DNA from: Nitrososphaerota archaeon
GTDB taxonomy: Archaea > Thermoproteota > Nitrososphaeria > Nitrososphaerales > Nitrosopumilaceae
Reading direction: 5' to 3'
Length of the DNA: 57,478 nucleotides
NCBI GenBank assembly: GCA_028867785.1
Contig: JAGWFS010000013.1
Location: 1 to 57,478, forward strand
The stretch's first letter is position 1. Every line of letters starts with the position of its first letter. The position numbers and the translations under genes are program-made. A model generated the notes under the pieces. The model worked only from the letters and a program-made list of their open reading frames with translations. It had not been told where the DNA came from and searched no databases. Positions 12,211 to 38,427 of the stretch are shown here, one piece after another.

Positions 12211-13258
12211 TTGCCTTGATCGACTCACTGAGTTCCTGTGGCAAAACTATCTTTTCTCGTATGGGCCTGATTATATCGGATACATATTTTCCTGCAGCGG
12301 TTTTCAGGTCTGAAGGGTGGAGCTTTTTCTCCACAAAGTCTTTTTCCAGCTGCTGGTATCCTGTATATGCTACATTGCCGCCAAATTTCTCCGGCCTTTC
12401 AACGACTATCTCATTGAATTGATGAAATACGACATACCTGAAAATCTCAAGAACCGGGTTTTTCTCCACAATCCCTTCGGGGCACCAAGCTTTTTTGAAT
12501 TTTGACCCGATCTCATCATCTGTATCATGAATGAATATTCCAGACGAAGACTTGGATTTGCTCATTTTGCTTGATATTATCTGTGAGTCGGAATCGGAGC
12601 TTACCTCGGGCTCGCTCAAACCTGCAAGTATGTGGTGGTGAACCGCTATCGGCACCTTCCATTTCATCTTGGGAAAAATTTCCCGCACCAGCATGTGTAT
12701 CTTTCTTTGATCCATTCCTGCATGTACTATGTCCAGATCCATGGAGTGAATGTCTACTGCCTGCATCGGGGGATAGAAGAGCTGACCCAGCTCGATTTTG
12801 TCCTTGTCCGCACTTCTTCCCATTATTGTAAGCGAGCGCATGGTTCTTTCAAGCGACATGTTTTTTGAAAACTTGACCAAATCCATCCAGTATTCCTTTC
12901 GTGACTCGTAGAGATCAGAGCCCTCGATAATTTCTACACCTGGACAGAATAGCTTGAAGGCGTCTGCATAATATCTCGATACCATCCTGATCCTGTCCCA
13001 GTCCCCGCCAAGTTTGTTATTGATGTAGGTGTGCCAGTCTGCCAAAAATACGGTGCACTTTACTCCCGCCTTGATAAAGTCATTTATCTTAAAACCAGTG
13101 AGTACGAGACTGCCAAGATGCAGAAATCCGGAAATTTCTAATCCTATGTAATGCTTGGGATGAGAATTTGTATTAAACAGATTTACCAGTTCTTCTTGCG
13201 TGACTACTTCCTCAGTAGGATCTCTTGTAACAAGATTGATTTTTTCTGTAATATCCAC
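12203..13258 (-). CDS. tyrS: tyrosyl-tRNA synthetase
   Basis: 351-residue class Ic aminoacyl-tRNA synthetase of the archaeal/eukaryotic TyrRS type, charging tRNA-Tyr. The HIGH-type motif is HLGS at residues 47-50. The KMSKS loop is KMSKSKSS near residue 230. Tyrosine-binding landmarks YIGLEISG and the Q/D pair in FYPPMQAVDIHSMDLDIVHAGMDQRK are present. The C-terminal domain is compact, with no EMAPII extension. It converges with the LLM gene. Confidence 0.93.
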   Translation of the reverse strand: MDITEKINLVTRDPTEEVVTQEELVNLFNTNSHPKHYIGLEISGFLHLGSLVLTGFKINDFIKAGVKCTVFLADWHTYINNKLGGDWDRIRMVSRYYADAFKLFCPGVEIIEGSDLYESRKEYWMDLVKFSKNMSLERTMRSLTIMGRSADKDKIELGQLFYPPMQAVDIHSMDLDIVHAGMDQRKIHMLVREIFPKMKWKVPIAVHHHILAGLSEPEVSSDSDSQIISSKMSKSKSSSGIFIHDTDDEIGSKFKKAWCPEGIVEKNPVLEIFRYVVFHQFNEIVVERPEKFGGNVAYTGYQQLEKDFVEKKLHPSDLKTAAGKYVSDIIRPIREKIVLPQELSESIKATT

Positions 13259-13292
13259 TGCAAGTCAAATCTTCCCTTGTGACCCTATAAAG

Positions 13293-13910
13293 TTACGCGT
13301 CAAGATCGTCTGTCTTCTTTCTTGGTCTTGTGCTAAGATATAATGCGTGCGAGCTTATGATGATGGCAGCAAGGAACATCTTCGTGGCAAAGTTCAGGTT
13401 CCATGGTCTTGTGGGATCGGGATAGGCAACAGTCAAAGAGTCTATGTCCGGCACCTTTCCATTTATGATTCCGGCTGTGATCTGTGCGTTGAGAACAATA
13501 AAGTTGTAAATCACTTCGTATAGGCATATTGCCGCCAGTCCTGCCAACATTAACTGCACCAGTGTAAGCTGCCACGATGGAACTGATATGGTCCTCTTCC
13601 ATCCAATTCTTGTGACGCAATACCAGCCAATTATTGAGGAAAAGAACAGCCACGAAGTCAGCTTGGCAAAGTGAGCCGTAGGAAACTCTGTTTTTTCTAA
13701 TATCTCACCCATTACATACGTCCCGTTTTTTTGCCATTCTTCTGTCATTTCGTAAATTCCATAGAAGGTTATGGACAGCATTATGAATCCACACGCATAG
13801 AAAATGTACAGAAATACTTTGTATCCTGACTGATCCTTGTGCAGGTGAACCTTCATTAAACTACGATTGCTGCCACCTGAAATATAAAAATTGGTTTTAA
13901 TCTCATTCAT
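13293..13910 (-). CDS. four-helix membrane protein, unknown function
   Basis: 205-residue integral membrane protein with four predicted spans at about residues 31-52, 85-102, 117-140 and 173-192. The N and C termini are charged, and a soluble loop (GIINGKVPDIDSLTVAYPDPTRPW) sits between spans 3 and 4. I do not recognise a family and see no catalytic or metal motif. It is encoded just downstream of nothing on its strand and is divergent from the DegT aminotransferase, with a 37-bp gap between starts. Confidence 0.7.
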   Translation of the reverse strand: MNEIKTNFYISGGSNRSLMKVHLHKDQSGYKVFLYIFYACGFIMLSITFYGIYEMTEEWQKNGTYVMGEILEKTEFPTAHFAKLTSWLFFSSIIGWYCVTRIGWKRTISVPSWQLTLVQLMLAGLAAICLYEVIYNFIVLNAQITAGIINGKVPDIDSLTVAYPDPTRPWNLNFATKMFLAAIIISSHALYLSTRPRKKTDDLDA

Positions 13911-13947
13911 GAGGTTTAATTATAGTGTAAAATTTGATAATGTATAA

Positions 13948-15036
13948 TTGAAAATTCCTATAAACACTCCAGTAATAGGAAGAGAAGAAATCAACGAAAT
14001 ACGATCTGTGTTACTAAACAAATCGTTAACGACTGCCGCAAATACAGGCGGCAAAAGGGTTCAGGAATTTGAAAAACTGCTTGCGGATTATACCGGATCA
14101 AGATATGCAGTAGCGGTAAATTCAGGAACGGCAGCATTACAGGCAGCTCTTTATGCCCTTGACATAAAACACGGCGACGAAGTACTGCTACCGTCATTTA
14201 CCTTTGTGGCAACTGCAAATGCAGTCGTATCCGTCGGGGCAAAGCCGGTATTTGTTGACATACTTGCAAGCAATTACACGATGGATCCGGACGATTTGAG
14301 AAAAAAGATTACAAAAAAATCAAAGGCGATCATGCCAGTACATCTATACGGGAATTTTGCATACATGGATGAAATTTCTGAAATTGCAAACAAGCATAAT
14401 GCGAGCATAATTGAGGATGCCGCACAGTCGCTGGGAACTACGTACAAAAACAAACAATCGGGAACATTCTCGCGCCTAGGCTGTTTTAGCATGTATGCGG
14501 CAAAGGTTGTGACAGCGGGAGAGGGCGGGGCAATTGTCACGAACGAAAAAGGACTCTACGAAAAACTCCGCAAGATAAGAAATCATGGAATGTTGCATGG
14601 GTATGACACTAGAATCTTAGGATTAAACCTTCGACTTCCTGAAATGTCGGCCGCCATGGCCAAAGTCCAAATGAAAAAACTCCCCGGACTTCTTAAGAAA
14701 AGAAAGAGAAACGCCGAGGTTCTAACGCGTCTCTTAGACGAATTGGATATCACACTGCCAACCGAAAGAGCAGGCGTCAAGGTAAACTGGTACCTCTATA
14801 CCATTTCCACAAAGAACCGCAACAAGTTGGCAAAACAACTACACGCAAAAGGAATAGGAGCTACGGCTTATTACCCAATTCCGGCTCACAAGACTCCATT
14901 TTATAACAACAAGACAAAGCTTCCAATGACTGACTGGGCAGCGTCTACTGTACTAAGCTTGCCTGTGCATCCGCTTGTTACGGAAAATGATCTTCACTAC
15001 ATTTCAAAAACCATGCATCAGCTAGTTGGAAAATGA
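13948..15036 (+). CDS. DegT/DnrJ/EryC1/StrS-family sugar aminotransferase
   Basis: 362-residue PLP-dependent aminotransferase that typically aminates keto-sugars on nucleotide carriers for surface glycans or antibiotics. The PLP lysine is K186 in SMYAAKVVTAGEGG, with IIEDAAQSLG as the aspartate motif. The N-terminal start is TTG at 13948 (KIPINTPVIG). Nitrososphaerota decorate their S-layer and lipids, so a glycan role is plausible. It overlaps the MtrA-like gene by 4 bp (ATGA), which suggests co-translation. Confidence 0.9.
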   Translation: MKIPINTPVIGREEINEIRSVLLNKSLTTAANTGGKRVQEFEKLLADYTGSRYAVAVNSGTAALQAALYALDIKHGDEVLLPSFTFVATANAVVSVGAKPVFVDILASNYTMDPDDLRKKITKKSKAIMPVHLYGNFAYMDEISEIANKHNASIIEDAAQSLGTTYKNKQSGTFSRLGCFSMYAAKVVTAGEGGAIVTNEKGLYEKLRKIRNHGMLHGYDTRILGLNLRLPEMSAAMAKVQMKKLPGLLKKRKRNAEVLTRLLDELDITLPTERAGVKVNWYLYTISTKNRNKLAKQLHAKGIGATAYYPIPAHKTPFYNNKTKLPMTDWAASTVLSLPVHPLVTENDLHYISKTMHQLVGK

Positions 15037-23275: not shown

Positions 23276-23350
23276 GGGCCGGTAGTCTAGTCTGGTTAGG
23301 ATACCTCCCTGACACGGAGGTGGTCGAGAGTTCAAATCTCTCCCGGCCCA
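23276..23350 (+). tRNA. tRNA-Val(GAC)
   Basis: 75 nt with acceptor GGGCCGG/CCGGCCC and discriminator A, anticodon stem CCTCC/GGAGG and loop CTGACAC (anticodon GAC, Val), and T-arm GAGAG-TTCAAAT-CTCTC. CCA is not encoded. AACGTTAATAACG about 26-36 bp upstream may hold the TATA element. Its last 13 bases are the left half of a direct repeat found again at 36288, so it is the target site of an integrated element. Confidence 0.95.
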
Positions 23351-23363
23351 TCCACTCTGTCTT
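23338..23363 (+). repeat. attL-like repeat at the 3' end of tRNA-Val
   Basis: CTCTCCCGG-C-CCATC-C-ACTCTGTCTT matches 36288-36313 at 24 of 26 positions. It begins in the T-stem, runs through the 3' end of the tRNA and 13 bp beyond. An integrase gene starts 126 bp to the right. This is the classic arrangement of tyrosine-integrase insertion into a tRNA gene that rebuilds the tRNA 3' end. Confidence 0.75.
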
Positions 23364-23488: not shown

Positions 23489-24883
23489 TTATCCAATCTT
23501 TGACTTGATTGCAGATGCCAATATGTTGAGCATCGCCTGCAACATTTCCGGACTGGCGTTTGCGATGGCATTTGCAAAGTCGTCATTTTGTTTCTGTGGC
23601 GGAGGTCTTGCTGACAATTCCAGGTCAAGTAATTCCTGACTTCGCTTGAAAGATTCCTGCATTTCCTTTACAAGTTCTTCTGCCAGGACTCCCTTGTTCG
23701 TTGTGTACTTGGCCTCAATCGATCCCTTGTGTCCCATGAAATAGACACGAAAGTCGTGTGCAATCTTTCCTCTTGCTTCTGCAAGCAGTAGCTGTGTGTC
23801 AAAGTATGCACGAAGTACATAGGGCCTCCACATGAACCGTGGCCTGAATGTTTCTCTGACCATGCTTGAGATGCGGACGGTAATGAGGAACTTGTTTCCC
23901 TCCTTTCCCTGTCTTCCATACTTGTAATCCCTGTTCGGACCAATCACAGCAGAGTCGGGTGTTAGCACCTCGCCCCTTGCCAGCCTGTCGTTGAGATATA
24001 CAAGCAACCTTTCCGATCCCCCATCTGTCAGAAAAGTAAAGTACTGGTGTCTTGCCTTTGAAAGAGTTCTTCGCACAGTTATCTTTGCAGGTCGTTGTCG
24101 TAATCTTGCAACTCCGTTGACGATCTCCAAGTCAGGAATGTCCTTTATCATCAGGCCGTCTGTTCCATTATGGTTTCCAAGAACCTCTGGCCTCAGTCCT
24201 GCCTTTGTCATCAACGATATCACGGCAGCTTCGCGAAGACCAGCCCTGGTCAGTACCTCGTACATCTCTGTACCGTTTGGTACTCGTTCGTTTTCCAGTG
24301 TTGGAGTGCTTTCCGAGTCTGTTATCTTCAGCCTTCGAACTATCTGTATGTCAAAGTGCCTCAGCCATGACTTGACAGATGTCATCGTTGCCTCGATGTA
24401 CTGCGGTGCATAGTTTTCCTGCTCCATCCACGTTATGTGGTCTTGCAGCAGATCGGTTATAGTCCTCAGATCCTTCATGCCAAGCTCGGCAAGCTCCATG
24501 GGTGTCATGTTATGATGCTCACAGAAGCTACCAAGCCTGCGCGCTCTGCGTTCAGCCGTTATAGGACTTCCCCTTGCGACGTTGTCGTACCATCTCTTTA
24601 TGTCAGAATTTGCAAGAAGTTTTCGTACTTTGTTTTCTCGTTTCTTTTTGGCAGTTGTTGTAGTTGTGTTGTTTGTTGTGTTTCCCATATCAGACTGCCC
24701 GCTTGCTTTGTGCAAGCAGTCCTCATCAGAAGAGGTATCGGAAGCATCAGTATTTGGCTTTTCGTCAGTTAAACAGGTATTGGGAGAGGCAGAGTATTCC
24801 TCTGGAGGATCTATCTCAGAACCATCATCTTCAATATCAGATGGCTTCGAAAATGATTCCTTAGATTCCTTTGAGAGTTCCAT
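23489..24883 (-). CDS. int: tyrosine recombinase/integrase
   Basis: 464-residue integrase of the archaeal tyrosine-recombinase type. Catalytic candidates are R231 in AGLRPEV, R358 in WRPYVLRAYFDT, H385 in FMGHKG and nucleophile Y393 in AKYTTNK. In box II the usual HxxR histidine is replaced (YVLR), as seen in several archaeal integrases. The N-terminal 80 residues are acidic Ser/Thr-rich and likely disordered. A core-binding SAM-like domain spans about 90-180, and a Q/K-rich tail follows the active site. A TATA-like element (minus-strand CCATAAATAC) is about 25-30 bp before its ATG. Its 3' end faces the attL repeat in tRNA-Val, so it is the likely integration enzyme of the 13-kb element and is not split by it. 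Confidence 0.92.
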   Translation of the reverse strand: MELSKESKESFSKPSDIEDDGSEIDPPEEYSASPNTCLTDEKPNTDASDTSSDEDCLHKASGQSDMGNTTNNTTTTTAKKKRENKVRKLLANSDIKRWYDNVARGSPITAERRARRLGSFCEHHNMTPMELAELGMKDLRTITDLLQDHITWMEQENYAPQYIEATMTSVKSWLRHFDIQIVRRLKITDSESTPTLENERVPNGTEMYEVLTRAGLREAAVISLMTKAGLRPEVLGNHNGTDGLMIKDIPDLEIVNGVARLRQRPAKITVRRTLSKARHQYFTFLTDGGSERLLVYLNDRLARGEVLTPDSAVIGPNRDYKYGRQGKEGNKFLITVRISSMVRETFRPRFMWRPYVLRAYFDTQLLLAEARGKIAHDFRVYFMGHKGSIEAKYTTNKGVLAEELVKEMQESFKRSQELLDLELSARPPPQKQNDDFANAIANASPEMLQAMLNILASAIKSKIG

Positions 24884-25651: not shown

Positions 25652-26683
25652 ATGACAAACAAAATACTGCCATCGTTGATGATAGGAACAGTACTAGCAC
25701 TGACCGTGGTTTCTCCAAACTTTGTGTTTGCAGCACCTACAGGTTCGTGGAGCACGGCAGCCCCTATTCCCAGTGCAAGAGAGGGATATGGTGCAGCACA
25801 GGTAGGTTCAATCAACTACTATGTAGCAGGAGACGGACCTTCTGGGGATTCTAATACGATCCAGAGGTATAACGCATCAAGCAATACGTGGCTCTCCGAT
25901 GGAGCACCGATGCCAGGACCGGTAAGGGCAGAGCTTGCAGCAGTGTCCCAAGGAGGACACGTATATGCTGTTGGCGGCCGACCGGCAGGAGTAGTGATGG
26001 GCGGAATTCAAAGATACGATCCGGCATCTGACACTTGGACTCCATTCTCAGGTCCAGGTGCGCTCAACCCAATGCCAACACCCGTTGTAACAGAGCATAC
26101 TGTTGTGGTACAAGGTGAGAAGATCTACGTCATTGGCGGAAGAGATGCCTTACATCCAGCACCTCAAACAGGCGGTGATGTAAACCTCCTGCAGATCTAC
26201 GACATTCCATCCAATAGCTGGAGCATGGGCGTAAATCTCCCATTCACGCTCTCGGATGCATATGCCGTGGTGCACGGTGACAAGATCTACGTCTTTGGAG
26301 GATTCAGTACCGATCCCTCTGCCCCGGCAGGTCAAGCAGGTCCGTTTGGATTTGGAAAGATCTTGAACTCGACGCTTATCTATGACATTGCCAAGAACAA
26401 GTGGAGTACCGGAGCTAGCATGCCAACCCACACTGCAGATGAGACTGCAGGAACGTGCGGAGACAAGATACATGTCGTAGGAGGAGGTCCGGTCTTTAGT
26501 CTGACTGGAAACCATTACGTATACAATCCAGCCGCGGATAGCTGGAGCACAAGTACTGCCATGCCAGGAATAACTGGTGAGACACAGACTATCTCCACCG
26601 GCGGACAATTGTTCATCGTTGGCGGCGGAATATTTGGAAGCGGAACCTTCAATCCTGTACAAAACATCTGGACTTGTGGTTAA
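25652..26683 (+). CDS. secreted Kelch-repeat beta-propeller protein
   Basis: 343 residues with a signal peptide (ILPSLMIGTVLALTVVSPNFVFA). The mature protein has at least six Kelch repeats, each with a G-G doublet (YAVGGRP, YVIGGRD, YVFGGFS, HVVGGGP, FIVGGGI) and a W about 20 residues later (SNTWLSDG, SDTWTPF, SNSWSMG, KNKWSTG, ADSWSTS). This forms a six- or seven-bladed propeller that usually binds proteins or sugars. No anchor or sequons are needed for this to be extracellular. It ends in a U-rich terminator followed by a 24-bp repeat. Confidence 0.88.
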   Translation: MTNKILPSLMIGTVLALTVVSPNFVFAAPTGSWSTAAPIPSAREGYGAAQVGSINYYVAGDGPSGDSNTIQRYNASSNTWLSDGAPMPGPVRAELAAVSQGGHVYAVGGRPAGVVMGGIQRYDPASDTWTPFSGPGALNPMPTPVVTEHTVVVQGEKIYVIGGRDALHPAPQTGGDVNLLQIYDIPSNSWSMGVNLPFTLSDAYAVVHGDKIYVFGGFSTDPSAPAGQAGPFGFGKILNSTLIYDIAKNKWSTGASMPTHTADETAGTCGDKIHVVGGGPVFSLTGNHYVYNPAADSWSTSTAMPGITGETQTISTGGQLFIVGGGIFGSGTFNPVQNIWTCG

Positions 26684-27726: not shown

Positions 27727-27768
27727 GATTGCAATAAAGTGCAGAAAAACCAGAAGAATGCTGCGCCA

Positions 27769-27779
27769 CTTTTTTAAAT
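27769..27779 (+). promoter_or_regulatory. TATA box of the secreted-protein operon
   Basis: TTTTTTAAATG-type AT run centred about 30 bp before the ATG at 27805. It also reads as TTTAAAAAAG on the other strand, so one element may serve both divergent genes. Confidence 0.45.
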
Positions 27780-27804
27780 GATGATTGTACCGCATGTATC
27801 AAAC

Positions 27805-30102
27805 ATGAGAATGCGATACGCTTTATTGATAATCGGCTTTTGTGCATTTGGGTTTGTTCTGCATGCAAGTGTACATGCGCAATCTGAATCTCAGTGCATG
27901 ACCAAAGCAGAGCTTGAAAAATCAGTTCTGACACCTACTATCGGGCCGTCTCTGTATCCTAAGGGTTACGTCATGCAATGTGCTACAAAAGTTGGCTCTG
28001 TAACATATGAAAACTATGTGCCAAACGGTACTTTGGCATCAAGTCAACAACAAGAAATTCCATCTGAGATAAAATTTCCGCTCAGAGTCCTCCCATATTC
28101 AGGAAGTTCAATAGATGTTGCGGCAAGAGCTGGTCAGTCTATTCAAATTCCAGTCAAGATAGAAGTTGACCCGCATTACAGTTTGATTGACGCACAATTC
28201 TCAGTGGAGAATATTCCATCACATGTTCAATCTTGGATAGATCCAAGTGATTCTGATTTTCTTAAACATTTACCTGCTAACCAGAGTGAGTCAAATGGAA
28301 CAATTTACATCTATGTTGATTCCGCTGCAAAAGCAGGTTCTTATGACCTTTTAATCGATGCCAGTGGCTCCATAAAGAACGTATCTGGCAATGAAACAGA
28401 CTTTGGTCAAACACCAATTGGAATCATGCATCTTTTCATATCAGAAAATGCGACCACGTGGATTGATGTTGGATTGCCAGATATTCATCGTGCCAACATG
28501 TGTTTCCCGGAGGGTTCTGGACATTCATGTGCAGGGTTTGTAGCATATGAGGTGTACCCACTAACCGTATACGGGAAAAACCAGCAGGTCACCATGACCG
28601 TTCCGGATCTTCCTGCTGGTAAGTTCCTAAGATTCATTCCAAACCAGACTGTTGCAATCCCATCAGGTACTAAAATAAAGATGATAACTTCTGGAATAGT
28701 AACACCCGGCGCCCCAAACGCACTGTTTACTCCAGTCATTACCATAGTTGCTAGAAATGAGGATGGAACAAACGCATCAAGCTACATACCTGTTGCAAAG
28801 ACTGAAAATATGAGTATAATCAACTCGCCGCAGAAAATAGATCTTCTTGGAAGATTTGGGGGCAATGGACACTCTGGTACGGGAATATTTGGCGTATTGT
28901 ACAGTCCGCAAGACTATACCGGCAATCCAATTCCTGTGAAACTGTCTGTACTTGGATTGCAAAACGGCACCAAGATAGTTTCACTTCCTACTTGGTTGTC
29001 AGTCTCTATACCCGATTCATCATTTGATCTCACTCCTTTGATTCCTTACTTTTTCACAATAAACTTTACAGCAGTTAACGGCAGCTTGGGCACCTATCCT
29101 GTCGCAATTGGAGAAAATGTAGGCGGTTACAATTTTGTTGGAGACATACAGATAACAGTCTACAATCCACCCTTCCTTGGAGGCGCAATTCCTAGTGTGG
29201 AAAATCTCCATTCTGCATCAAACATGCAATCTCCACTAACACAATTCAAGTCTGGCATACCAGCAAGCAAAGTTGTATGCAAACAAGGGTTTCAATTGAT
29301 TATCAAAGCAGAAGACGATTCTCCTGCATGTGTAAAACCTGACACTGCTCAGATATTGGTTGAGAAGGGATGGGCAAAAAGCACCACCGGCGTGTCTGGC
29401 CTTGCAAGGCCTCCGGTAGGATTGCACAATTTGACATCATCAACAAAACCGATTATCCTAGGTATCCCCTTCTATGTCAAGGCAGTAGTTACAAACTACC
29501 TGACAGAGCCGATAACATACTACGGCGGATGCGTCTCATCGCTTTCTGTTTCTTTTGACAATATCAAGACAACTGCTGATAATGTCCACTGTCTTGCGAT
29601 ATCAAAGTATACACTAGGGCCAAATCAAAGCGTACCAATTCAGAGCGACAAAATAGAGACCATATACAACGCCACGGGGCCAAATACCACTACAAACGTC
29701 CAGATCAAGTTCATCTACGAAGTGGATGGAAAACAAGCCTCCATGTTTACAGGCATGCAGATACCAATCCAGAATGCGATCATGATTGACTGTTCTGGTG
29801 AAAGAGTAGATCTTCACATGAAACAAATTGACAAGACCGTAAATGTAACAAAAGCAGTTGCTCTTGCATACAGATCCCCCGAGTTTCTTTCCAAGATAAA
29901 GCAGTATGGAAATGTCTCGTACAGCGGATTCTATAATGATTGGTTTTCCTCCGAGTCATGTCACACATACTGGAATGGCACTGAGGTAATGTTTGCAACA
30001 AAAGATAACAGTACCAGTACAAGAAACATTCAGGTAACTGAGGACATTAACCAGACTAAGGTTCTCAAGGTAAGGGATTTTGTGGTGACTCCAACCAAAT
30101 GA
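27805..30102 (+). CDS. large secreted protein with thaumarchaeal QFKSGI-type module
   Basis: About 765 residues starting at ATG 27805 with signal peptide MRMRYALLIIGFCAFGFVLHASVHA. The region around residues 90-400 is a chain of beta domains with many sequons (NQS, NGT, NVS, NET). It is paralogous to the protein at 30833, sharing IDVG-P, a Cys pair, and FIPN/FIPD. Around residues 480-525 lies a module typical of Thaumarchaeota surface proteins (QFKSGIPASKVVCKQGF, ACVKPDTAQILVEKGW). No C-terminal transmembrane helix or PEFG tail is visible. It overlaps the next gene by 4 bp (ATGA) and begins a four-gene run, the core of the accessory element. No catalytic motif is seen. Confidence 0.8.
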   Translation: MRMRYALLIIGFCAFGFVLHASVHAQSESQCMTKAELEKSVLTPTIGPSLYPKGYVMQCATKVGSVTYENYVPNGTLASSQQQEIPSEIKFPLRVLPYSGSSIDVAARAGQSIQIPVKIEVDPHYSLIDAQFSVENIPSHVQSWIDPSDSDFLKHLPANQSESNGTIYIYVDSAAKAGSYDLLIDASGSIKNVSGNETDFGQTPIGIMHLFISENATTWIDVGLPDIHRANMCFPEGSGHSCAGFVAYEVYPLTVYGKNQQVTMTVPDLPAGKFLRFIPNQTVAIPSGTKIKMITSGIVTPGAPNALFTPVITIVARNEDGTNASSYIPVAKTENMSIINSPQKIDLLGRFGGNGHSGTGIFGVLYSPQDYTGNPIPVKLSVLGLQNGTKIVSLPTWLSVSIPDSSFDLTPLIPYFFTINFTAVNGSLGTYPVAIGENVGGYNFVGDIQITVYNPPFLGGAIPSVENLHSASNMQSPLTQFKSGIPASKVVCKQGFQLIIKAEDDSPACVKPDTAQILVEKGWAKSTTGVSGLARPPVGLHNLTSSTKPIILGIPFYVKAVVTNYLTEPITYYGGCVSSLSVSFDNIKTTADNVHCLAISKYTLGPNQSVPIQSDKIETIYNATGPNTTTNVQIKFIYEVDGKQASMFTGMQIPIQNAIMIDCSGERVDLHMKQIDKTVNVTKAVALAYRSPEFLSKIKQYGNVSYSGFYNDWFSSESCHTYWNGTEVMFATKDNSTSTRNIQVTEDINQTKVLKVRDFVVTPTK

Positions 30103-30824
30103 AAACCCTGTATCTTTCAATAATTGCAATTTTGCTTCTAGTCACAGGCACCAGTAATGTATTTGGGCAAAACCAGAACACAGAACAAACCGTACACATA
30201 ATCATTCCAAGCGGGTCGGCCACTCCAAGATGTAGCCCTCTGTGTTTTGTCCCTGAAGATGTCACTGTAACAAGAGGAACAGTTGTAGACTGGGTCAATA
30301 AGGACCTGGTTCCTCATGACATTGCAAGCGGACAAGCAAGTGACAATCAAACGGGAACAATATTTGACAGCGGTCTAATACAGCCAGGCCGAGACTTTCA
30401 ATACAAGTTTGACAGGACTGGAACTTACAATTATTTTGATCTCGTACACCCCTGGGCCACCGGAATAATCAGGGTAAGCGATAGCATCCATTCCAACATT
30501 GTACCACGTGTAATAACTGCAAGAACTGACAGGGACTCCTACTATGGCTGGGATGCAATAACCATTACGGGAGCCACAAATGGATACATCCCGGACTCTG
30601 ATGTCTTGATTACGATAAAAGATCCTCACAAGAACACAATCATGAAAGATGACGTACCATTGCAGCAAGACAGCAATTCCTATCTTGCCAAGATAATTGC
30701 AGGCATGAACTTTACTGAATCTGGAACATATGAGATTGATGCAAGATACGGCACGGCACAGTTCCAAACATTTTTTGATTTTAACACGGCATCTCCAGAA
30801 AAAATACTCCAAATCAAGGCATAG
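30099..30824 (+). CDS. secreted cupredoxin-fold protein lacking Cys and Met copper ligands
   Basis: 241 residues with a signal peptide (LYLSIIAILLLVTGTSNVFG). Residues about 30-130 form a plastocyanin-like fold: VTVTRGTVVDWVNKD, then VPHDIAS with the first His ligand, then GTYNYFDLVHPWATGIIRV. In copper-binding relatives the last element reads about YFC-x-HPWM, so here Cys is replaced by Asp and Met by Ala while both His remain. The C-terminal half has a second beta domain (YYGWDAITITGATNGYIPDSDVLITIKDPH), as in Ig-like fusions. A type-1 blue copper site is unlikely; a different metal site or a structural role fits better. It overlaps the previous gene by 4 bp and is 8 bp from the next. Confidence 0.8.
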   Translation: MKTLYLSIIAILLLVTGTSNVFGQNQNTEQTVHIIIPSGSATPRCSPLCFVPEDVTVTRGTVVDWVNKDLVPHDIASGQASDNQTGTIFDSGLIQPGRDFQYKFDRTGTYNYFDLVHPWATGIIRVSDSIHSNIVPRVITARTDRDSYYGWDAITITGATNGYIPDSDVLITIKDPHKNTIMKDDVPLQQDSNSYLAKIIAGMNFTESGTYEIDARYGTAQFQTFFDFNTASPEKILQIKA

Positions 30825-30832
30825 GAAACAGT

Positions 30833-32074
30833 TTGGAACCAGAACTCGTTCAGGGACAGTCGACGCAACTGACTATAATCTTCAACCTGAACAAAAGCTA
30901 CACCATGCAATACATCGGACTCTCACTTGCAGGTATGCCACAAGGTGTGCAGGCATGGATTAACCCGCAACAGCTTTACTCCTACATCAACAAAAATTAT
31001 ACCCAGTACGCGCAAATTCCAATCTATGTAAATTCGGGAACCGCGTCGGGCAACTATACTATCAATGTAATAGCAAACGGAAACATGGTAAATGAGACCT
31101 CAAACAAGGAAATTTCTTTCAATTACCAGAGAATTGGATCAATCAACCTTGTCATCAAGCCTGCCACAAGTCCAATCTCAGTTGATATCGGGCAACCAGA
31201 ATACACCAGTACGCAGTTTTGCACTGATACTGAAACATCAGGACACATGTGTGAAAGTTTTGTCGGGCATGAAGAGTTTCCAATAACCGTTCATTCAGAC
31301 AGGCCTACCATGGTCAGACTTGATGCCCAGGTCCCAAGCGGAGGATACCTCAAGTTCATACCTGATAGCTTTGACGTAACAAGTAACGGTTCCAGCTCAC
31401 GCATGATAATTGCTGGCATAATGGAGCCCTTTATGATAAATCCACTTGATACGCATCCTATGACAATCAAGGCAATCTCGGCAGACAGCAATATCGCTAT
31501 TGCTTATCTGCCCGTAATACAATCTGATAACGTCACCGTCCTCACATCGCCAGCTCCAATAAGCCCTGTAAACAGCCAACTTTTGACCAGCGGATCTCAG
31601 ACGGCGATAATTCCTTTTGGTGTGGTATATGAACCGCAAGCAGACGCAGACAGTACCCTTCCGGTAAAACTTCAAGCCCTTGGAATAGTCAATGGGTCTG
31701 ACATTGTCCCTTTTACATCATCGTTTAGCGTAAAAATTCCGCAGGACTCTTTTGTGCTAAACGCGTCAGAGCCTTATTATTTTATGGTAGAACCCATATC
31801 TCATTCCTTGCCATCCGGCAGTATCACATTTGCAGTAGGCCAAGAAGTGGGCGGACAACATTTTGTACAAAATGTCACCCTGGACATATCAAATGTCCGT
31901 TATGGCGAGTCTTCAATACAGGTCTCATCTTCACAATACGACCTTCAAAGTACAGGACCAAACTCTCAAAACACCGGATCAAATCCGCTGGTAGCAACAA
32001 TAGGAATCGGTGGAATCGTAGGGGTGGGGGCTGGCGCAATCTCATTTTTTGTTCTTAGGAGAAAACCGGATTGA
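30833..32074 (+). CDS. surface protein with C-terminal membrane anchor and no signal peptide
   Basis: 413 residues from TTG 30833. Nearly the whole length is paralogous to the first half of the 27805 protein: LSLAGMPQGVQAWINP matches its VENIPSHVQSWIDP, and VDIGQP, FVGHEEFPITV and YLKFIPD also match. The C terminus has a 19-residue hydrophobic helix then basic residues (GAISFFVLRRKPD), a membrane anchor with the outside upstream. Yet there is no N-terminal signal sequence. The gene starts 8 bp after a stop, so it may need a frameshift or readthrough from the cupredoxin gene, or it is a truncated copy. The next gene starts 2 bases after its stop. Confidence 0.7.
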   Translation: MEPELVQGQSTQLTIIFNLNKSYTMQYIGLSLAGMPQGVQAWINPQQLYSYINKNYTQYAQIPIYVNSGTASGNYTINVIANGNMVNETSNKEISFNYQRIGSINLVIKPATSPISVDIGQPEYTSTQFCTDTETSGHMCESFVGHEEFPITVHSDRPTMVRLDAQVPSGGYLKFIPDSFDVTSNGSSSRMIIAGIMEPFMINPLDTHPMTIKAISADSNIAIAYLPVIQSDNVTVLTSPAPISPVNSQLLTSGSQTAIIPFGVVYEPQADADSTLPVKLQALGIVNGSDIVPFTSSFSVKIPQDSFVLNASEPYYFMVEPISHSLPSGSITFAVGQEVGGQHFVQNVTLDISNVRYGESSIQVSSSQYDLQSTGPNSQNTGSNPLVATIGIGGIVGVGAGAISFFVLRRKPD

Positions 32075-32075
32075 G

Positions 32076-34673
32076 ATGAAAACTTTACATCTTTCAATAA
32101 TTACAGGTTCCGGAATTGCAGCTTTGGTGACGCTTGCTGTCATTTTATTGATGACTCATTCTGCCAGCGCAGACGGATCCCTTGCAATCATCATGAACAA
32201 GCATGAATATGGCACAGAGGAACCAATCCAGTTTTTTGTACAGACTGGGAACCAGCCTGAAGAAAACGCCTTTCCAACAGCCTTTATCGTTAATGGCCAG
32301 AACCAGACGGTCTGGTATGATGATGACCTGCCGCCAAACGGCTCAAAGGAGGGCATGAACGAGTATTATGTCAGCGAAAACAGCTGGAATGTTCCGATGA
32401 TAAACCAGACAGGCAGATACTCTCTGTTTGTAACATATGAAGGGCAAAAGGCATACGAGGCCTTGACCGTTACAGAACTGGTCAACGAGGACGGCATGAT
32501 ACACTTCTATGGCCCTTACCAAGGGTTGGATAACAATAACGGAACAGCCCAGATTGCAAACCAGACTTATTATCTCATGACCGTATCCGGCGCTCCCTCT
32601 GATCAGACCAGACCAAATGATACAACGATAGCATTTCACGGCGTATCCTTTACGTTTCCGGGCTGTGGAAAATGCCTTGCAGTTCCAATGCCTTTCAATC
32701 CATTACAACCCGTAATAGTCAAGTTCTCAGACAACACCACAGAGACACTTGCAGTAAGAGACAACATGTGGTCTACCATCGGCATGCAGGCATATACTCA
32801 CGAGTATTTTCCAAACGGTACAAGAGGTACTACATGGAAGCAAATACAGCACAGGGACCAGATTGTTACCACGCTAACCAGTCATACCGGACCGCAGGCT
32901 GGTATTACGGTAACACATGACTCGGTAAAGCTTCTGGTAAGCGAGAACCCACAAAATGTGGAACTTGGAGCTGCTGGAGGTCCGTCAAATAACTGGTCTG
33001 CAATTGGAATGCCATTTCAACTGTATAGTCCTCTAAAACAATTCAAATCTGGAATTGAGTCAAAGGATGTCAAGTGTAATTCAGGTTATGTTCTTGTCGT
33101 AAAAGCAGAGGATGGCTCACCGGCATGTGTAAAGCCAGAAACAGCTCAAAAATTGATTGAAAGGGGATGGGCTAGAGAAATAGTCACTGTAGACCCAATG
33201 GCAAACTTGGCAAACGATACGGGAACAATTACGATGGACAATCAGACATATTATTTTGAGACGCCAAGATATTCACAAGACGCATACGCTAATTCCCCAC
33301 AAATCTCGTTTCATGGCGTAACCTTTACTCTATTTCCAACAGGATTTAGAGGAGGACTTCCTGTTATTCATTGTGGACTGCAAGGATCTGGATTAGGACA
33401 ATATTATTGGGCTGATTCCAAGTTTTCAGATAACACTCATGAATTGTTGCATCTGTTTGCATACTCTCCATCAGTATGCAACTTGCCAATACCATCCATG
33501 CTTGGCACTCATACAAACCCTCAGGCAGGCTTGGCATTCTATGATGGGAAGATGAAACTTCTAGTCAGCACAGATGTAGACAAGTCAAGCCAGCAGACTG
33601 GCAGCACAGGGACAACAGGGACGATCGAGCTAAGAAACACGACATATGATTTTCTTGTCTTGAATTCAACCATGAAAGGGTATCACAACCCGTCGCTGCA
33701 GACAGTGTTTGACGGTGTAGAGTTCACTCTCCTTCCTGGACCTTGGTCTGGGGGACCTCCGGGTGGTTGCAGTGGCACTCCATTTAGTGCAGAGGCAAAG
33801 GCAAGCGACGGACTCTACATACCTCTTCGTATCTTGATACCAGACGAACCGTGCAAGATGAACTCTACAACTAGAGATCTTGGATGGCACCACGGACTCG
33901 GAGCAGGACTGGCTGTTTACAATGGCAAGGTAATGATACTTGTAAGCAAGGACGAAAAAGATTCCGGAATTACTCAAATAAGCCTCAAAGCGTACGGGTT
34001 TGTCTGCTGCGGGATGTACGGAGACCTGCTCAAAGGAAACCTCAGCTCCACTGCAGGTCCCATACCAGACGCAAACGTGACAATATCAGTAAATGGCATA
34101 TTGATGGGCTATGCAAAAACACTTCCTGACGGTTGCTTCCAGTTCAACCAGTGGAATGAATCCAAGTTATCAAACCAGACAAGCGCATACCTTGCACGTG
34201 AAAAAGCCTCTGGCAGTTTCTCGCCATTTCCTCTCACATTTACTGCCTTGTATCCCGGTGACCTTGAAACATATTTCCCAGCAAGTGCCATTGCAACATC
34301 ATCCGAGTCCCTTATCGCAGTCCCGTTTCCGCCGCCACAGTTAGAATCTACGGTAACACCCTCGCAAGTAAATGTGACCCAAGGATCATCGGCCAGCATT
34401 CAGATCTCTGTAAGGCCCATGATAGAGTCGTGGAATGTGACTCACATGAATCTGTATCTGGACCAGTTGCCGTGCGGAATCTCCTATGAAATCTCACAAG
34501 CTTCTGATAACGATACCTCGTCTGTCACACACCCTGCTGTCTTTAATGTGACTCTAAAGGCCGCACCGTATTCGCCAGAAGGTACTTACTTTGTTGGCAT
34601 GGAACAAAATGGAACAAATTCTATGGTATCAAGAGATGCTGCCGGAACATTTAGTCTAAACGTCTTGAAATGA
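32076..34673 (+). CDS. large secreted protein with three tandem modules
   Basis: About 865 residues from ATG 32076 with signal peptide (LHLSIITGSGIAALVTLAVILLMTHSASA). Three copies of a module of about 110-135 residues occur near residues 155-290, 382-500 and 514-625. Each opens like GTI-x-N-x-TY-x-F, has F-x-GV-x-FT in the middle and closes GLA-x-Y-x-GK-LLVS. Between copies 1 and 2 lies the QFKSGI...GW module also found in the first protein of the operon. Two Ig-like domains end the protein (CFQFNQW with a DGCF turn; SVRPMIESWNV). Sequons are abundant and no anchor is seen. It looks like a multi-domain binding or structural surface protein. Confidence 0.78.
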   Translation: MKTLHLSIITGSGIAALVTLAVILLMTHSASADGSLAIIMNKHEYGTEEPIQFFVQTGNQPEENAFPTAFIVNGQNQTVWYDDDLPPNGSKEGMNEYYVSENSWNVPMINQTGRYSLFVTYEGQKAYEALTVTELVNEDGMIHFYGPYQGLDNNNGTAQIANQTYYLMTVSGAPSDQTRPNDTTIAFHGVSFTFPGCGKCLAVPMPFNPLQPVIVKFSDNTTETLAVRDNMWSTIGMQAYTHEYFPNGTRGTTWKQIQHRDQIVTTLTSHTGPQAGITVTHDSVKLLVSENPQNVELGAAGGPSNNWSAIGMPFQLYSPLKQFKSGIESKDVKCNSGYVLVVKAEDGSPACVKPETAQKLIERGWAREIVTVDPMANLANDTGTITMDNQTYYFETPRYSQDAYANSPQISFHGVTFTLFPTGFRGGLPVIHCGLQGSGLGQYYWADSKFSDNTHELLHLFAYSPSVCNLPIPSMLGTHTNPQAGLAFYDGKMKLLVSTDVDKSSQQTGSTGTTGTIELRNTTYDFLVLNSTMKGYHNPSLQTVFDGVEFTLLPGPWSGGPPGGCSGTPFSAEAKASDGLYIPLRILIPDEPCKMNSTTRDLGWHHGLGAGLAVYNGKVMILVSKDEKDSGITQISLKAYGFVCCGMYGDLLKGNLSSTAGPIPDANVTISVNGILMGYAKTLPDGCFQFNQWNESKLSNQTSAYLAREKASGSFSPFPLTFTALYPGDLETYFPASAIATSSESLIAVPFPPPQLESTVTPSQVNVTQGSSASIQISVRPMIESWNVTHMNLYLDQLPCGISYEISQASDNDTSSVTHPAVFNVTLKAAPYSPEGTYFVGMEQNGTNSMVSRDAAGTFSLNVLK

Positions 34674-34681
34674 GTAGTAAG

Positions 34682-34950
34682 ATGAAAACACTACACCTTG
34701 CAATACTTGCAGTTACTGGTTTGTTTCTAGTTTTTACAGTTACATTTCATGTTGCCAACGCATTTTGTGGAGTATTGAATCCTGACTGGCCAAAATACCA
34801 TGTTATGCAATTCCAGGTTTACATGTAACCAAGGAACAGATGAAAAATGATTGGGAGATATACTATCAATACAAAGGTGCACAGTGGATGGAAATGAAGA
34901 AAATTGAAAAGACAGTCTTTTGCAGAACCATGGTCATATGCGAAATGTAA
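34682..34950 (+). pseudogene. small secreted protein gene with frameshift
   Basis: ATG 34682 opens a third copy of the start region shared with 30099 and 32076 (MKTLHLAILAVTGLFLVFTV, signal peptide). It continues to CGVLNPDWPKYHV and stops at 34826. The next frame carries CYAIPGLHVTKEQMKNDWEI to the TAA at 34948. Adding one A within the AAAA run at 34792-34795 joins them into one protein of about 90 residues. Either it is a recent frameshift or a sequence error. The mature part has paired Cys and a KNDWEIYYQYKG core that I do not recognise. Confidence 0.5.
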
Positions 34951-35052
34951 AAAATTTGCCACCAGAATTCTCAAGCTCTTTTATTGTATACTGTCTAATT
35001 CACTGCCAATAGAAAAAGTCAATTTAATAAGATGGGTTCAAGTAAGATTATA

Positions 35053-35058
35053 GGAGAG
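35053..35058 (+). promoter_or_regulatory. ribosome binding site that sets the antitoxin start
   Basis: GGAGAG lies 6 bases before the ATG at 35065. A TATA-like AATTTAATAA at 35021-35030 puts the transcript start near 35050, downstream of the earlier in-frame ATG at 35032. Together these favour 35065. Confidence 0.55.
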
Positions 35059-35064
35059 AAAATA

Positions 35065-35277
35065 ATGACTAAAAAAACAACTGCTGTACAGCTACCGAAA
35101 GACCTAGTCGAAGACCTCATTGAGGCCTCACTGAGATTTCAAGAAGTAGTTGAGACTCTTGAGGTTCAGTTGGACAAGAAGACTGTTGAGAGACTCAAAC
35201 GTGGTGAGAAAGAATATCGGCAAGGAAGGTACAATACAGCTGCAAATCGTGACGAGATTGAGAAGGTACTTAGTTGA
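35065..35277 (+). CDS. antitoxin partner of RelE-type toxin
   Basis: 70 residues (MTKKTTAVQLPKDLVEDL...). The N-terminal strand and helix TAVQLPKDLVEDLIEASLRF resemble a ribbon-helix-helix or similar DNA-binding start, followed by a charged helix with a KGEK/RGEKEYRQGRY patch that could wrap the toxin. The family cannot be named with certainty. Position just before a RelE-like gene with a 4-bp overlap (TTGA) makes the antitoxin role likely. I use 35065, not the earlier 35032, because of the ribosome binding site and TATA spacing. Confidence 0.72.
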   Translation: MTKKTTAVQLPKDLVEDLIEASLRFQEVVETLEVQLDKKTVERLKRGEKEYRQGRYNTAANRDEIEKVLS

Positions 35278-35525
35278 AATACAGTGTTGTATTTCTAAAC
35301 GTATTTCTCAAGCAGTTTAAAAAGATCCCTTCAGATATGCAAGAACGCATAAAACAGAGAATTCTACAACTAGTTGAGAATCCGTATCTGGGGCTTGGGT
35401 TAAGAGGAAATCTTGAGGGCTTTTGGAAGGATAGATTGGGAGAGTACCGAATCATCTACAAGATTGAAAAAGATACAATAGTCTTTTATGACATCGATCT
35501 GCGTAAGAGGATTTACGATAGGTAA
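35274..35525 (+). CDS. RelE/ParE-family toxin
   Basis: 83-residue toxin of the RelE/YafQ fold: VFLNVFLKQFKKIP, a helix bundle MQERIKQRILQLVENP, then GNLEGFWKDRLGEYRIIYKIEKDTIVFYDI with the R-x-GEYRI strand that carries catalytic residues. A TTG start overlaps the antitoxin stop. RelE toxins cleave mRNA in the ribosomal A site; ParE members target gyrase, and the LGEYRIIY core fits RelE better. It lies near the right end of the integrated element and may help keep it in the cell. Confidence 0.88.
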   Translation: MKYSVVFLNVFLKQFKKIPSDMQERIKQRILQLVENPYLGLGLRGNLEGFWKDRLGEYRIIYKIEKDTIVFYDIDLRKRIYDR

Positions 35526-36287: not shown

Positions 36288-36313
36288 CTCTCCCGGTCCA
36301 TCTACTCTGTCTT
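36288..36313 (+). repeat. attR-like repeat, right end of the element
   Basis: CTCTCCCGG-T-CCATC-T-ACTCTGTCTT matches 23338-23363 at 24 of 26 positions, both differences being C to T. No further tRNA-like sequence precedes it. It marks the distal end of the 13-kb insertion. Confidence 0.7.
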
Positions 36314-36368
36314 CATGGGCAGGGTGATAAGCAATATTTAATACTCCCAAGCAGGGGGCCCAGATCAC

Positions 36369-37196
36369 ATGAAAATTTACCTCACTCTGTTTGCACTTGT
36401 TGCAGCAACTTTATTGTTTTCAGTTCATAGTGCAAACGCAGTTACATATGACTTGAAAGATCACGCGTCATGTCAGGCTATTTCCGGTACATGGGACAAT
36501 CCCACCTCGGCGTGTACTGTATCCAGTCTCTGGATAGATTCTGGCGATCTACTGACAGTAGACAATTCATTTTTATCCACCATTTTGTTGAAAGTTACAG
36601 ATTCCTTAAACAACCGCGGCACCATAGACATATCCGGCAGCATCACGATTGCAAACTCTGGCATTCTTAACAACAACGGCTCTATTACCAATTACTGCAC
36701 TGGACAATGCGTTGGCGGTACAATCCAGAACGAGGGCACCATAACCAATAACAATGGAGGCACCATTATCACTAACGGTACCATCAACAATCTCGGCTCC
36801 ATAAACAATTTTGGTACAATCAAAAATACTGGCACCATTACCAACGGCGGCAAACTCATAAACAATTTCAAGGGCATGATAACCAACTCTGGTACAATTC
36901 ATAATGACGAACAGAGTGCAATCATAAACAGCGGCGGCAACATCACCAATTATGCTACTGTAATCGGCGATGTAGCTGGTACAATCACTAATTCTGGCAC
37001 AATTAAAAACATGTGTGGCGGGACATTTACCAGTGATGGGGATTTCTTAGGGACTCCAGTTGAAAATGTTTCATGTAATACGTCCAAATCATCGGCCGTG
37101 GGTGAATTTCCATTTGCAACACCAGCGCTTGTTATCGGCTTTCTTTCAATTTTGTTATTTTATAAAGCAAAAACCAGTGTCCTGTCTCATAGTTAG
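36369..37196 (+). CDS. secreted repeat-rich PEFG-like surface protein
   Basis: 275 residues. Signal peptide IYLTLFALVAATLLFSVHSANA, then about 15 short repeats of the form N-x-GTI-x-N (GTIDISG, GTITNNNGG, GTINNLGS, GTIKNTG, GTIHNDE), typical of a parallel beta-helix. A Cys/Cys pair lies outside the helix. The C terminus VGEFPFATPALVIGFLSILLFYKAK is a PEF-CTERM/PEFG-like sorting signal. The repeat unit is about 5-12 residues. It sits 56 bp past attR, so it is just outside the element. Such helices form adhesins or scaffold layers. Confidence 0.78.
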   Translation: MKIYLTLFALVAATLLFSVHSANAVTYDLKDHASCQAISGTWDNPTSACTVSSLWIDSGDLLTVDNSFLSTILLKVTDSLNNRGTIDISGSITIANSGILNNNGSITNYCTGQCVGGTIQNEGTITNNNGGTIITNGTINNLGSINNFGTIKNTGTITNGGKLINNFKGMITNSGTIHNDEQSAIINSGGNITNYATVIGDVAGTITNSGTIKNMCGGTFTSDGDFLGTPVENVSCNTSKSSAVGEFPFATPALVIGFLSILLFYKAKTSVLSHS

Positions 37197-37627
37197 CCTG
37201 AAAAATAGAATGCTTTTTGTGCTTTGACGTCAGACGAGCCGTATTGCACTGATATGGAATAAGTTCCGTCAAGCTTCCAGCTGGCTGGCGTAGTCATGAT
37301 CGTAGTCTGAAATATGCCGTCTGTGGATACAGAAATTCGTTCAGCTTGCAAAAGCAAATTGTTTGGATCAAGGATCAAGATTGTTACTTGGGTACCAGCG
37401 ATTGAAGGTTTGACTTTGCCTGAGATCACAATTGCGTCGCCCATGCTGTAGGAGGATTTGTCTGTGGTAACAGTAATGGACGAAGTTGTTTGATTGGCTG
37501 GCGGCATGCTGTCAAATGTAGAGTTGTTGACTTGAATGGGCTCGTGCTCGTCTTCTTCTAGATAGAAGATTGTTGTTATTACTGCCACAATCACCACACT
37601 GATGGCAATTGGAATTTTCCTATTCAT
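37193..37627 (-). CDS. membrane-anchored secreted protein
   Basis: 144 residues with an N-terminal transmembrane anchor (IAISVVIVAVITTIFYL), then an extracellular beta domain of Ig/MG2-type: TVTTDKSSYSMGDAIVISGKVKP, TQVTILILDPN, and TYSISVQYGSSDVKAQKAFYF. The first motif recurs in many Thaumarchaeota surface proteins. It overlaps the next gene upstream on its strand by 4 bp, so the two form an operon. Confidence 0.7.
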   Translation of the reverse strand: MNRKIPIAISVVIVAVITTIFYLEEDEHEPIQVNNSTFDSMPPANQTTSSITVTTDKSSYSMGDAIVISGKVKPSIAGTQVTILILDPNNLLLQAERISVSTDGIFQTTIMTTPASWKLDGTYSISVQYGSSDVKAQKAFYFSG

Positions 37628-38127
37628 GACTTACGACCATTGTATACTACAATCATGGCAATTACTGAAATTGTTAGTATGATGGAAACCACGGCTCCAA
37701 ACTCTGGAACCATGTGTGTGCCTTTGATCTCGATTGTACTATCTCCAGGATTAAAGGGAATAGTCAGGGTTCTGTTTTCCGTATTTTCAAGCTCAGTATA
37801 ATGAACTCCATGACTGTTTTTGAAGACCACAAAATGAGATTCAGCATTACCCTGATAGGCGTCAATAAACACTCGCGGCAAGATTATCGTCATGCTGCCA
37901 TTAGTAGACGATTGTATCTGAGCAACTATTGTTTTGGCATCGGTATCAACTTGAATCGAGGTGATTTTCCCACCTGTAGTGCTGTATGGGATTGTAAAAT
38001 CTGTCCCATTTACTTTCATCGTGTCTTCAGGAGGTATGAGATTGAATGTTTCTCCAAACGCTTTGATTTGATTTTGTCCTAGGACAACAGCTGTCATCAA
38101 TGCCAAAACTAGGACTAGAACCTTCAT
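37624..38127 (-). CDS. secreted PEFG-CTERM protein
   Basis: 167 residues with a signal peptide (VLVLALMTAVVLGQNQIKA), a beta-rich extracellular part with sequons (NGT, NGS, NRT), and a classic PEFG-CTERM end: VPEFGAVVSIILTISVIAMIVVYNGRKS. Anchored at the surface after sorting. It forms a two-gene operon with 37193. Confidence 0.8.
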   Translation of the reverse strand: MKVLVLVLALMTAVVLGQNQIKAFGETFNLIPPEDTMKVNGTDFTIPYSTTGGKITSIQVDTDAKTIVAQIQSSTNGSMTIILPRVFIDAYQGNAESHFVVFKNSHGVHYTELENTENRTLTIPFNPGDSTIEIKGTHMVPEFGAVVSIILTISVIAMIVVYNGRKS

Positions 38128-38247
38128 GTTATTCGTGTGGCAAATTTGCTCTTATAAAAACTGTAATGCAACTGGAATCATTTCTCATACAGATAAAAAA
38201 TCTGGAAAGACTAACTCTTGTAATCCTAAAGTGAATTACGTGATTGC

Positions 38248-38298
38248 GGATTCTCACAGGTCCTTTGAGATTGTCTGGGACAGGAACTTGTAGAATCC
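38248..38298 (+). ncRNA. 51-nt hairpin, candidate structured RNA
   Basis: In the 300-bp spacer 38128-38427 the segment folds as GGATTCT-c-ACAGGT-CCT, 17-nt loop, AGG-a-ACTTGT-AGAATCC. That gives 16 base pairs with two single-base bulges. There is no T-run after it, so it is not a terminator. The rest of the spacer shows nothing that I can support apart from a TATA-like stretch for the downstream gene. Confidence 0.35.
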
Positions 38299-38427
38299 AT
38301 GATAAGCTTGCTACAGTGGATGAAAAAATGGTCCAAATCAAGATAAAACAAAAAATGTCAAACCTGGTAGTAATATGCCATGGCTTGAGACATCATTCTT
38401 TTTATTTTGATATGTATAATGCATTAC

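Follow-up and report, generated by a model that had tools for sequence, protein, structure and literature searches.

A tRNA-Val integrative element carrying an operon of predicted mosaic WING-49 surface proteins in an ammonia-oxidising archaeal lineage

Results

The DNA analysed here, called the window below, is a stretch of 57,478 nucleotides that belongs to a single fragmented archaeal assembly (327 contigs). Four protein-coding genes and the remnant of a fifth follow each other on its forward strand:

27805..30102, + strand: P0001, with a signal peptide, a tandem Ig-like N module, a WING-49 domain at amino acids 477-525 and a separate C module
30099..30824, + strand: P0002, with a signal peptide, a cupredoxin-fold domain that lacks the Cys and Met copper ligands, and an Ig-like domain
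30833..32074, + strand: P0003, a 5'-truncated paralogue of the P0001 N module with a TTG start, no signal peptide and a C-terminal transmembrane anchor
32076..34673, + strand: P0004, with a signal peptide, three homologous modules, a WING-49 domain between the first and the second, and a further C-terminal region
34682..34950, + strand: frameshifted remnant of a fifth member, matched by BLASTX in two frames

The junctions from P0001 through P0002 and P0003 to P0004 measure -4 (ATGA), +8 and +1 bp, and the remnant begins 8 bp past the P0004 stop, which bears out the tandem arrangement with tiny overlaps and gaps described in the first-pass annotation of this DNA. The start regions that it reported to be held in common are likewise present, in the form of a 30-nt block at 30099, 32076 and 34682 that is 80-83% identical. 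P0001, P0002 and P0004 are intact, with 241-865 codons and signal peptides.

The long P0001 had been called a glycoprotein, which agrees with its signal peptide and with its 21 N-X-S/T sequons compared with 6.8±2.3 in shuffles of the same composition; P0004 has 23 compared with 8.5±2.7, and the excess over shuffles in these two proteins is two- to threefold. The structure model of P0001 consists of tandem Ig-like sandwiches (pLDDT of about 85 over residues 85-455), for which Foldseek returned only generic Ig-like sandwiches with low TM-scores. Sequence searches found no relatives among solved structures, and a scan of named genomes with P0001 gave no match. The three modules proposed for P0004 are recognizable as repeats at about residues 159-300, 384-508 and 519-640, and adjacent pairs score z values of 13.7 and 17.0 over shuffles; its structure model has a mean pLDDT of 36, and the fold was left unused. 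P0003 had been described as a truncated, anchored paralogue of P0001: it has a C-terminal transmembrane helix and no signal peptide, and its residues 7-357 align at 32% identity with residues 109-457, the N half, of P0001. Two homologues of P0003 (L039 and L040) begin about 52 residues earlier and have a signal peptide. The small frameshifted member was recovered as well, given that BLASTX of 34676-34960 yields parts 101-139 and 141-177 of one homologue in different frames.

For P0002, the cupredoxin fold proposed earlier stands (PF00127, 2.6e-6) but the copper site does not. Asp occupies the place of the ligand Cys and Ala that of the Met (YFDLVHPWATG), the aligned array relatives also lack the Cys, and the His-Cys-His-Met ligand set of type 1 (blue) copper proteins is not found. 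With the Cys and Met ligands replaced, we do not interpret P0002 as an electron carrier, and we reject the reading as a copper protein.

P0001 and P0004 have in common a module of the form QFKSGI...CVKPDTAQ...GWA, which is the NCBIfam domain WING-49 (NF058652; 78.5 bits and 2.9e-22 in P0001, 86.6 bits and 8.6e-25 in P0004, with a cut-off of 22):

29233..29379, + strand: WING-49 domain of P0001, at the apparent joint of a chimera
33030..33173, + strand: WING-49 domain of P0004

The common QFKSGI module noted at first pass is thus real. A secreted or surface operon built from common modules is supported, but the module itself is a known domain and not an undescribed one. The NF058652 entry names a domain of 49 residues and is silent on function, arrays and mobility; in the accessible literature, we found no prior description of WING-49, of Nitrosotalea surface repertoires or of a TFB regulon. 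There are 45 copies of WING-49 in the source genome, most of them on contigs C272, C33 and C111, where genes for secreted proteins form tandem arrays, and the domain is present in 151 of 300 sampled genomes of the class, nearly all from one family, and in 0 of 14 controls.

WING-49 proteins tend to be related to each other on one side of the domain only. This holds for 131 of the 142 pairs that are related on at least one side (41 on the N-terminal and 90 on the C-terminal side), and 11 pairs are related on both. P0001 is 51-78% identical to a paralogue at 61.2-63.4 kb of C272 from residue 35 to the end of WING-49, except at residues 450-476, where identity falls to 37%, and 3-23% identical beyond the domain; to a second paralogue, at 34.4-36.1 kb of C272, it is 5-26% identical before WING-49 and 44-71% from WING-49 onwards. 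By these identities P0001 reads as a clean chimera of two chromosomal paralogues, and because each of them matches on one side only, WING-49 lies exactly at the joint. Unrelated N- and C-terminal modules would thus be swapped at this domain. At about 70% identity the joint of the chimera is old, and WING-49 could therefore be a conserved functional linker instead of a recombination site.

Directly upstream of P0001 lies a promoter box:

27753..27802, + strand: conserved 50-bp promoter box with an upstream block, TATA TTTTTTAAA and a downstream GTnCnGTAC-like element; the P0001 start lies 2 bp on

Comparison of gene starts gave the sequence of the box as GAAGAAATCTACGCCAnTTTTTTAAACCATGnnTGTCCAGTACnTAT; the box stops about 2 bp short of the start codon. 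Searched with at most 3 mismatches, the first pattern of the box has 8 matches in the source genome, and the reversed pattern has 0 in 151 genomes. A sequence model finds 26 strong boxes in the source genome. Downstream of 22 of them, at a distance of at most 5 kb, lies a WING-49 gene on the same strand, and the zone concerned amounts to 3.2% of the genome. As WING-49 loci formed part of the training set of the model, the 22 of 26 is not fully independent, and the 33 boxes outside the training provide the independent test. In 30 of these 33, a start codon follows at 48-54 nt from the start of the box, and 25 have a hydrophobic N-terminus. The ordinary TTTTTAAA promoters of the genus have an identical TATA core at a similar distance, and the upstream block occurs in 2 of 21 promoters of the ordinary type, both of which are boxes of elements (in genomes G012 and G032). 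Ordinary TATA promoters without the upstream block rule out that the box is a generic promoter.

Boxes are also present in the elements of G012, G032 and G003, and a closed genome of the genus (G002, 1.81 Mb) has 17; in our sample, the box is limited to this genus and one more. The same box precedes a 46-aa zinc-ribbon-like protein and, at the heads of arrays, proteins with CDC48_N and CDC48_2 domains, a coiled-coil-like end and no AAA domain. The operon and the chromosomal WING-49 arrays hence have an upstream promoter sequence in common, and its distribution together with the contrast to ordinary promoters means that elements and chromosomal arrays have one promoter type.

Around the operon we find the parts of an integrative element:

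23276..23350, + strand: tRNA-Val(GAC), the integration target (ARAGORN; empty-site comparison)
23338..23363, + strand: left att-like repeat (tRNA-Val 3' end + 13 bp), 24/26 identical to 36288-36313
23489..24883, - strand: putative pNOB8-type tyrosine integrase of 464 aa, with an R..YxxR..Y signature and homologues beside tRNA genes
25652..26683, + strand: secreted kelch-repeat protein on the element (PF13964, 7.8e-28)
35032..35525, + strand: toxin-antitoxin pair of the element, with a RelE/ParE toxin (PF05016, 3.5e-9; phrog_1213, 2e-16) and an Arc-like antitoxin candidate
36288..36313, + strand: right att-like repeat, the end of the element of about 12.95 kb

The att-like repeats, the tRNA-Val, the integrase and the empty sites in relatives confirm the earlier suggestion that the operon is carried by such an element. 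The integrase has no match in Pfam, NCBIfam or PDB sequences, and its identity therefore rests on signature, position and homologues beside tRNA genes: R231, Y355-x-x-R358, H385 and Y393 are invariant in 9 homologues, in line with the R..YxxR..Y consensus of pNOB8-type integrases (PMC8371274), and the homologues sit at tRNA-Val, tRNA-Arg and tRNA-Ala. A search with the integrase also matches named Nitrosotalea contigs at lower identity, and the source organism is probably a Nitrosotalea. In 13 sister genomes the site is empty, and tRNA-Val is separated by 36-40 bp from the right-flank gene, which lies at 38.4 kb in the window. The site is occupied in G000, G012, G032 and G003, that is, in the source genome and three others, where the gap from tRNA to flank is 10.6-15.1 kb; the integrases are 75-87% identical, the secreted genes differ, and each of the four sites has at least one WING-49 gene, with different sets of neighbours. 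Distant integrases (L178, L206 and L207) sit at other tRNAs and have no WING-49 cargo, and the link thus concerns this integrase clade and genus, not the whole integrase family.

The gap in the window exceeds the element by about 2.1 kb. Further genes lie in 36314-38400, and relatives of two of them are present near the tRNA-Val site in G009; this part is presumably an older layer at the site. Small relics without an intact integrase are found at the same tRNA in G009 and G014. As suggestive observations only, a related integrase on another contig of G030 is flanked by a three-box WING-49 array, and G003 has a P0003 homologue 12 kb from an integrase at tRNA-Arg.

Scans of the main ORFs of the element with Pfam and PHROGs found no virion, casposon or conjugation genes, and the PHROGs matches were limited to cupredoxin, RelE and weak ones. 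An origin as a virus was rejected given that the integrase has no relatives in viral contigs, and a defence system given that there is no PADLOC match.

Discussion

We consider it probable that the locus is a host-regulated cargo operon of a tRNA-Val element, encoding mosaic WING-49 surface proteins from a genus-wide repertoire. Sequence comparison shows the element and its empty site, the sister elements with other WING-49 genes, the exchange of modules at WING-49 and the promoter box common to chromosomal arrays and element cargo. A secreted or surface operon that is built from common modules and carried by an integrative element is supported. A pNOB8-type integrase would have placed a cryptic integrative element of about 12.95 kb into the 3' end of tRNA-Val, with an operon predicted to encode secreted, N-glycosylated surface proteins of Ig-like or beta-sandwich type. 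All four genes would be spanned by one leaderless mRNA, a single transcript from the box at 27753-27802. The natural candidates for a dedicated host factor that reads the box are an alternative TFB, at the block beside the TATA, or a regulator at GTnCnGTAC; such a factor would coordinate the expression of an arriving cassette with that of the resident arrays. A function at the cell surface is suggested by signal peptides, sequons and anchors; the proteins may be located between the membrane and the S-layer or on the S-layer, and they may diversify under pressure from viruses, competitors or partners. The element could also supply the resident arrays with new modules by recombination through WING-49. 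The loss of the signal peptide from P0003 and the frameshift in the fifth member may mean that part of the cargo is in decay.

A more far-reaching version, which we put forward tentatively and would not yet expect to hold in full, is a plug-in mode of surface diversification. Here, a genus-specific alternative promoter, marked by an upstream YACRCCA-type block in the BRE position and a GTnCnGTAC site, would define a regulon of mosaic WING-49 surface proteins and AAA-less Cdc48-N proteins, to which tRNA-targeting elements would deliver ready-promoted cassettes, with modules that recombine at WING-49 with the resident arrays.

Few organisms on Earth are as abundant as the ammonia-oxidising archaea, yet to our knowledge hardly anything is known about the variation of their surfaces and their encounters with viruses and neighbours. 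What recurs across the genus, by sequence comparison, is a repertoire of mosaic secreted proteins under a common promoter type. The operon is one element-borne permutation of it, and this suggests a mobile, swappable repertoire of cell-surface proteins. If true, a named repertoire, joint domain, promoter box and mobile carrier make surface variation directly testable, which is probably feasible in cultured Nitrosotalea. New in the present work are the WING-49 joint, the promoter box common to elements and arrays, and the recurrent use of tRNA-Val by elements that carry WING-49. Already known are the WING-49 domain and the cryptic integrated elements with their plastocyanin-like and S-layer-like cargo (PMC6563490).

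Four other readings were weighed against the host-regulated cargo operon. The operon could be an inter-microbial conflict or self/nonself system, similar to VARTIG or polymorphic toxins, in which variable modules are displayed or delivered; we regard this as unlikely. The Ig-like mosaics, swapped modules and unique downstream genes are as in VARTIG (PMC8416519), but the operon contains no toxin domain, immunity gene or PADLOC match, and exchange takes place on both sides of WING-49 and not at the C-terminus alone. It also seems improbable that the operon is decaying cargo, made up of recombined genes for surface proteins that the element swept up and that are mostly non-functional. The truncated 5' end of P0003, the frameshift in the fifth member and the integrase-less relics at the same tRNA in G009 and G014 would fit such decay; against it stand P0001, P0002 and P0004, which are intact with signal peptides, the enrichment of sequons in P0001 and P0004, and the promoter box, itself intact, 2 bp ahead of the first start codon.

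The first-pass annotation had favoured one extracellular assembly, and had named the separate occurrence of the genes in other genomes as the observation that would speak against it. A dedicated, conserved complex with the five products as subunits and an operon that moves as a unit would agree with the tight spacing, the single upstream promoter box and the common domains, but we now hold it to be very unlikely. Relatives of P0002 occur in 37 of 37 genomes of the genus, of P0004 in 28 (many matching in WING-49 only) and of P0003 in 12, in contexts that vary; the gene order is absent from all loci examined. In addition, P0003 has no signal peptide and the gene of the fifth member is broken. 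Because relatives of each gene occur apart and in varied order across the genus, and the five genes were not found together elsewhere, the set has no conserved co-occurrence and is rejected as a defined system. Finally, it is highly improbable that the operon serves electron transfer or copper trafficking in ammonia oxidation as a set of auxiliary metabolic genes. A cupredoxin-fold gene is present, and thaumarchaeal elements are known to carry plastocyanin (PetE) and multicopper oxidases (PMC6563490), but P0002 lacks the Cys and Met ligands, its aligned array relatives lack the Cys, and the operon contains no other redox protein.

Comparison with known systems

The host-regulated cargo operon finds its closest setting in the thaumarchaeal cryptic integrated elements (Krupovic et al. 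2019, PMC6563490). These are 10-20 kb long, have an integrase gene beside a tRNA 3' end and no recognised virus or conjugation genes, and their cargo may include plastocyanin-like and S-layer-like Ig proteins. Judged by its sequence, our element belongs with them: it has an integrase at a tRNA and end repeats, is absent from the site in relatives, and is devoid of virion, casposon and conjugation genes. The survey names single cargo genes, whereas a WING-49 repertoire, an exchange joint and a promoter box common to elements and arrays are not described in its accessible text.

Tandem genes for mosaic surface proteins occur as well in the PKD/Ig arrays of Methanosarcinales, which differ in the PKD domain and for which no element or common promoter is reported in PMC8416519. 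The VARTIG modules of Thermococcales (Makarova et al. 2021, PMC8416519) are likewise archaeal and consist of a large secreted Ig protein, a homologue of arCOG07710 with a hypervariable C-terminal Ig domain, followed by unique smaller genes, some containing Ig domains, that are shuffled by recombination. The likeness is one of design only, with no sequence relation shown, and we do not claim membership, given that lineage and architecture differ. Neither an integrase near VARTIG nor a close counterpart outside Thermococcales is reported (PMC8416519), whereas the joint described here is a conserved WING-49 domain, central in the protein, with modules exchanged on both sides, and the operon is carried by an integrase-bearing element.

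Some secreted or membrane-protein genes carry only the upstream half of the promoter box, that is, the conserved block and TATA without the GTnCnGTAC-like part. These cases (loci L143 and L163, with other weak matches from the promoter-box search) hint that the box comprises two separable control elements. The promoter box also precedes genes at the heads of chromosomal arrays encoding mosaic secreted proteins with the WING-49 domain (NF058652); their products combine CDC48_N, CDC48_2 and a coiled-coil-like end, and the AAA ATPase domain is absent from all those listed here. A 46-aa zinc-ribbon-like protein, whose gene has the same box and adjoins arrays in two genomes, is a candidate regulator.

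Box-preceded genes at or beside arrays
L029:17010-17975, CDC48_N/CDC48_2 protein, no AAA
L032:18088-19053, CDC48_N/CDC48_2 protein, no AAA
L044:18843-19751, CDC48_N/CDC48_2 protein, no AAA
L035:5577-6356, CDC48_N/CDC48_2 protein, no AAA
L109:1543-1680, zinc-ribbon-like 46-aa protein
L046 near 10280, zinc-ribbon-like 46-aa protein

Within the element, the reading frame changes from P0002 to P0003 in a stretch that includes an A6 run (window 30795-30833). Because the P0003 frame is open upstream through the 3' end of P0002, the two are possibly one longer gene, frameshifted or split.

The sister element in G032 holds extra putative genes, identified by eye from the sequence.

Extra genes within L085:7162-11589
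Putative Vsr-type endonuclease
Putative C5 methyltransferase
Putative large ATPase/regulator pair

At L202 (G030:C144), a related integrase (12812-14143) adjoins a WING-49 array that has three copies of the promoter box; this may be another type of element.

Further genes follow the right att repeat, ahead of the conserved flank.

Genes within window 36314-38400
Haemagglutinin-repeat protein, weak PEFG-CTERM end
Ig-like membrane protein

Since two genes of this interval have relatives close to the same site in G009, the integration site seems layered. The element's right end itself bears a RelE/ParE toxin-antitoxin pair (window 35032-35525), a usual maintenance device.
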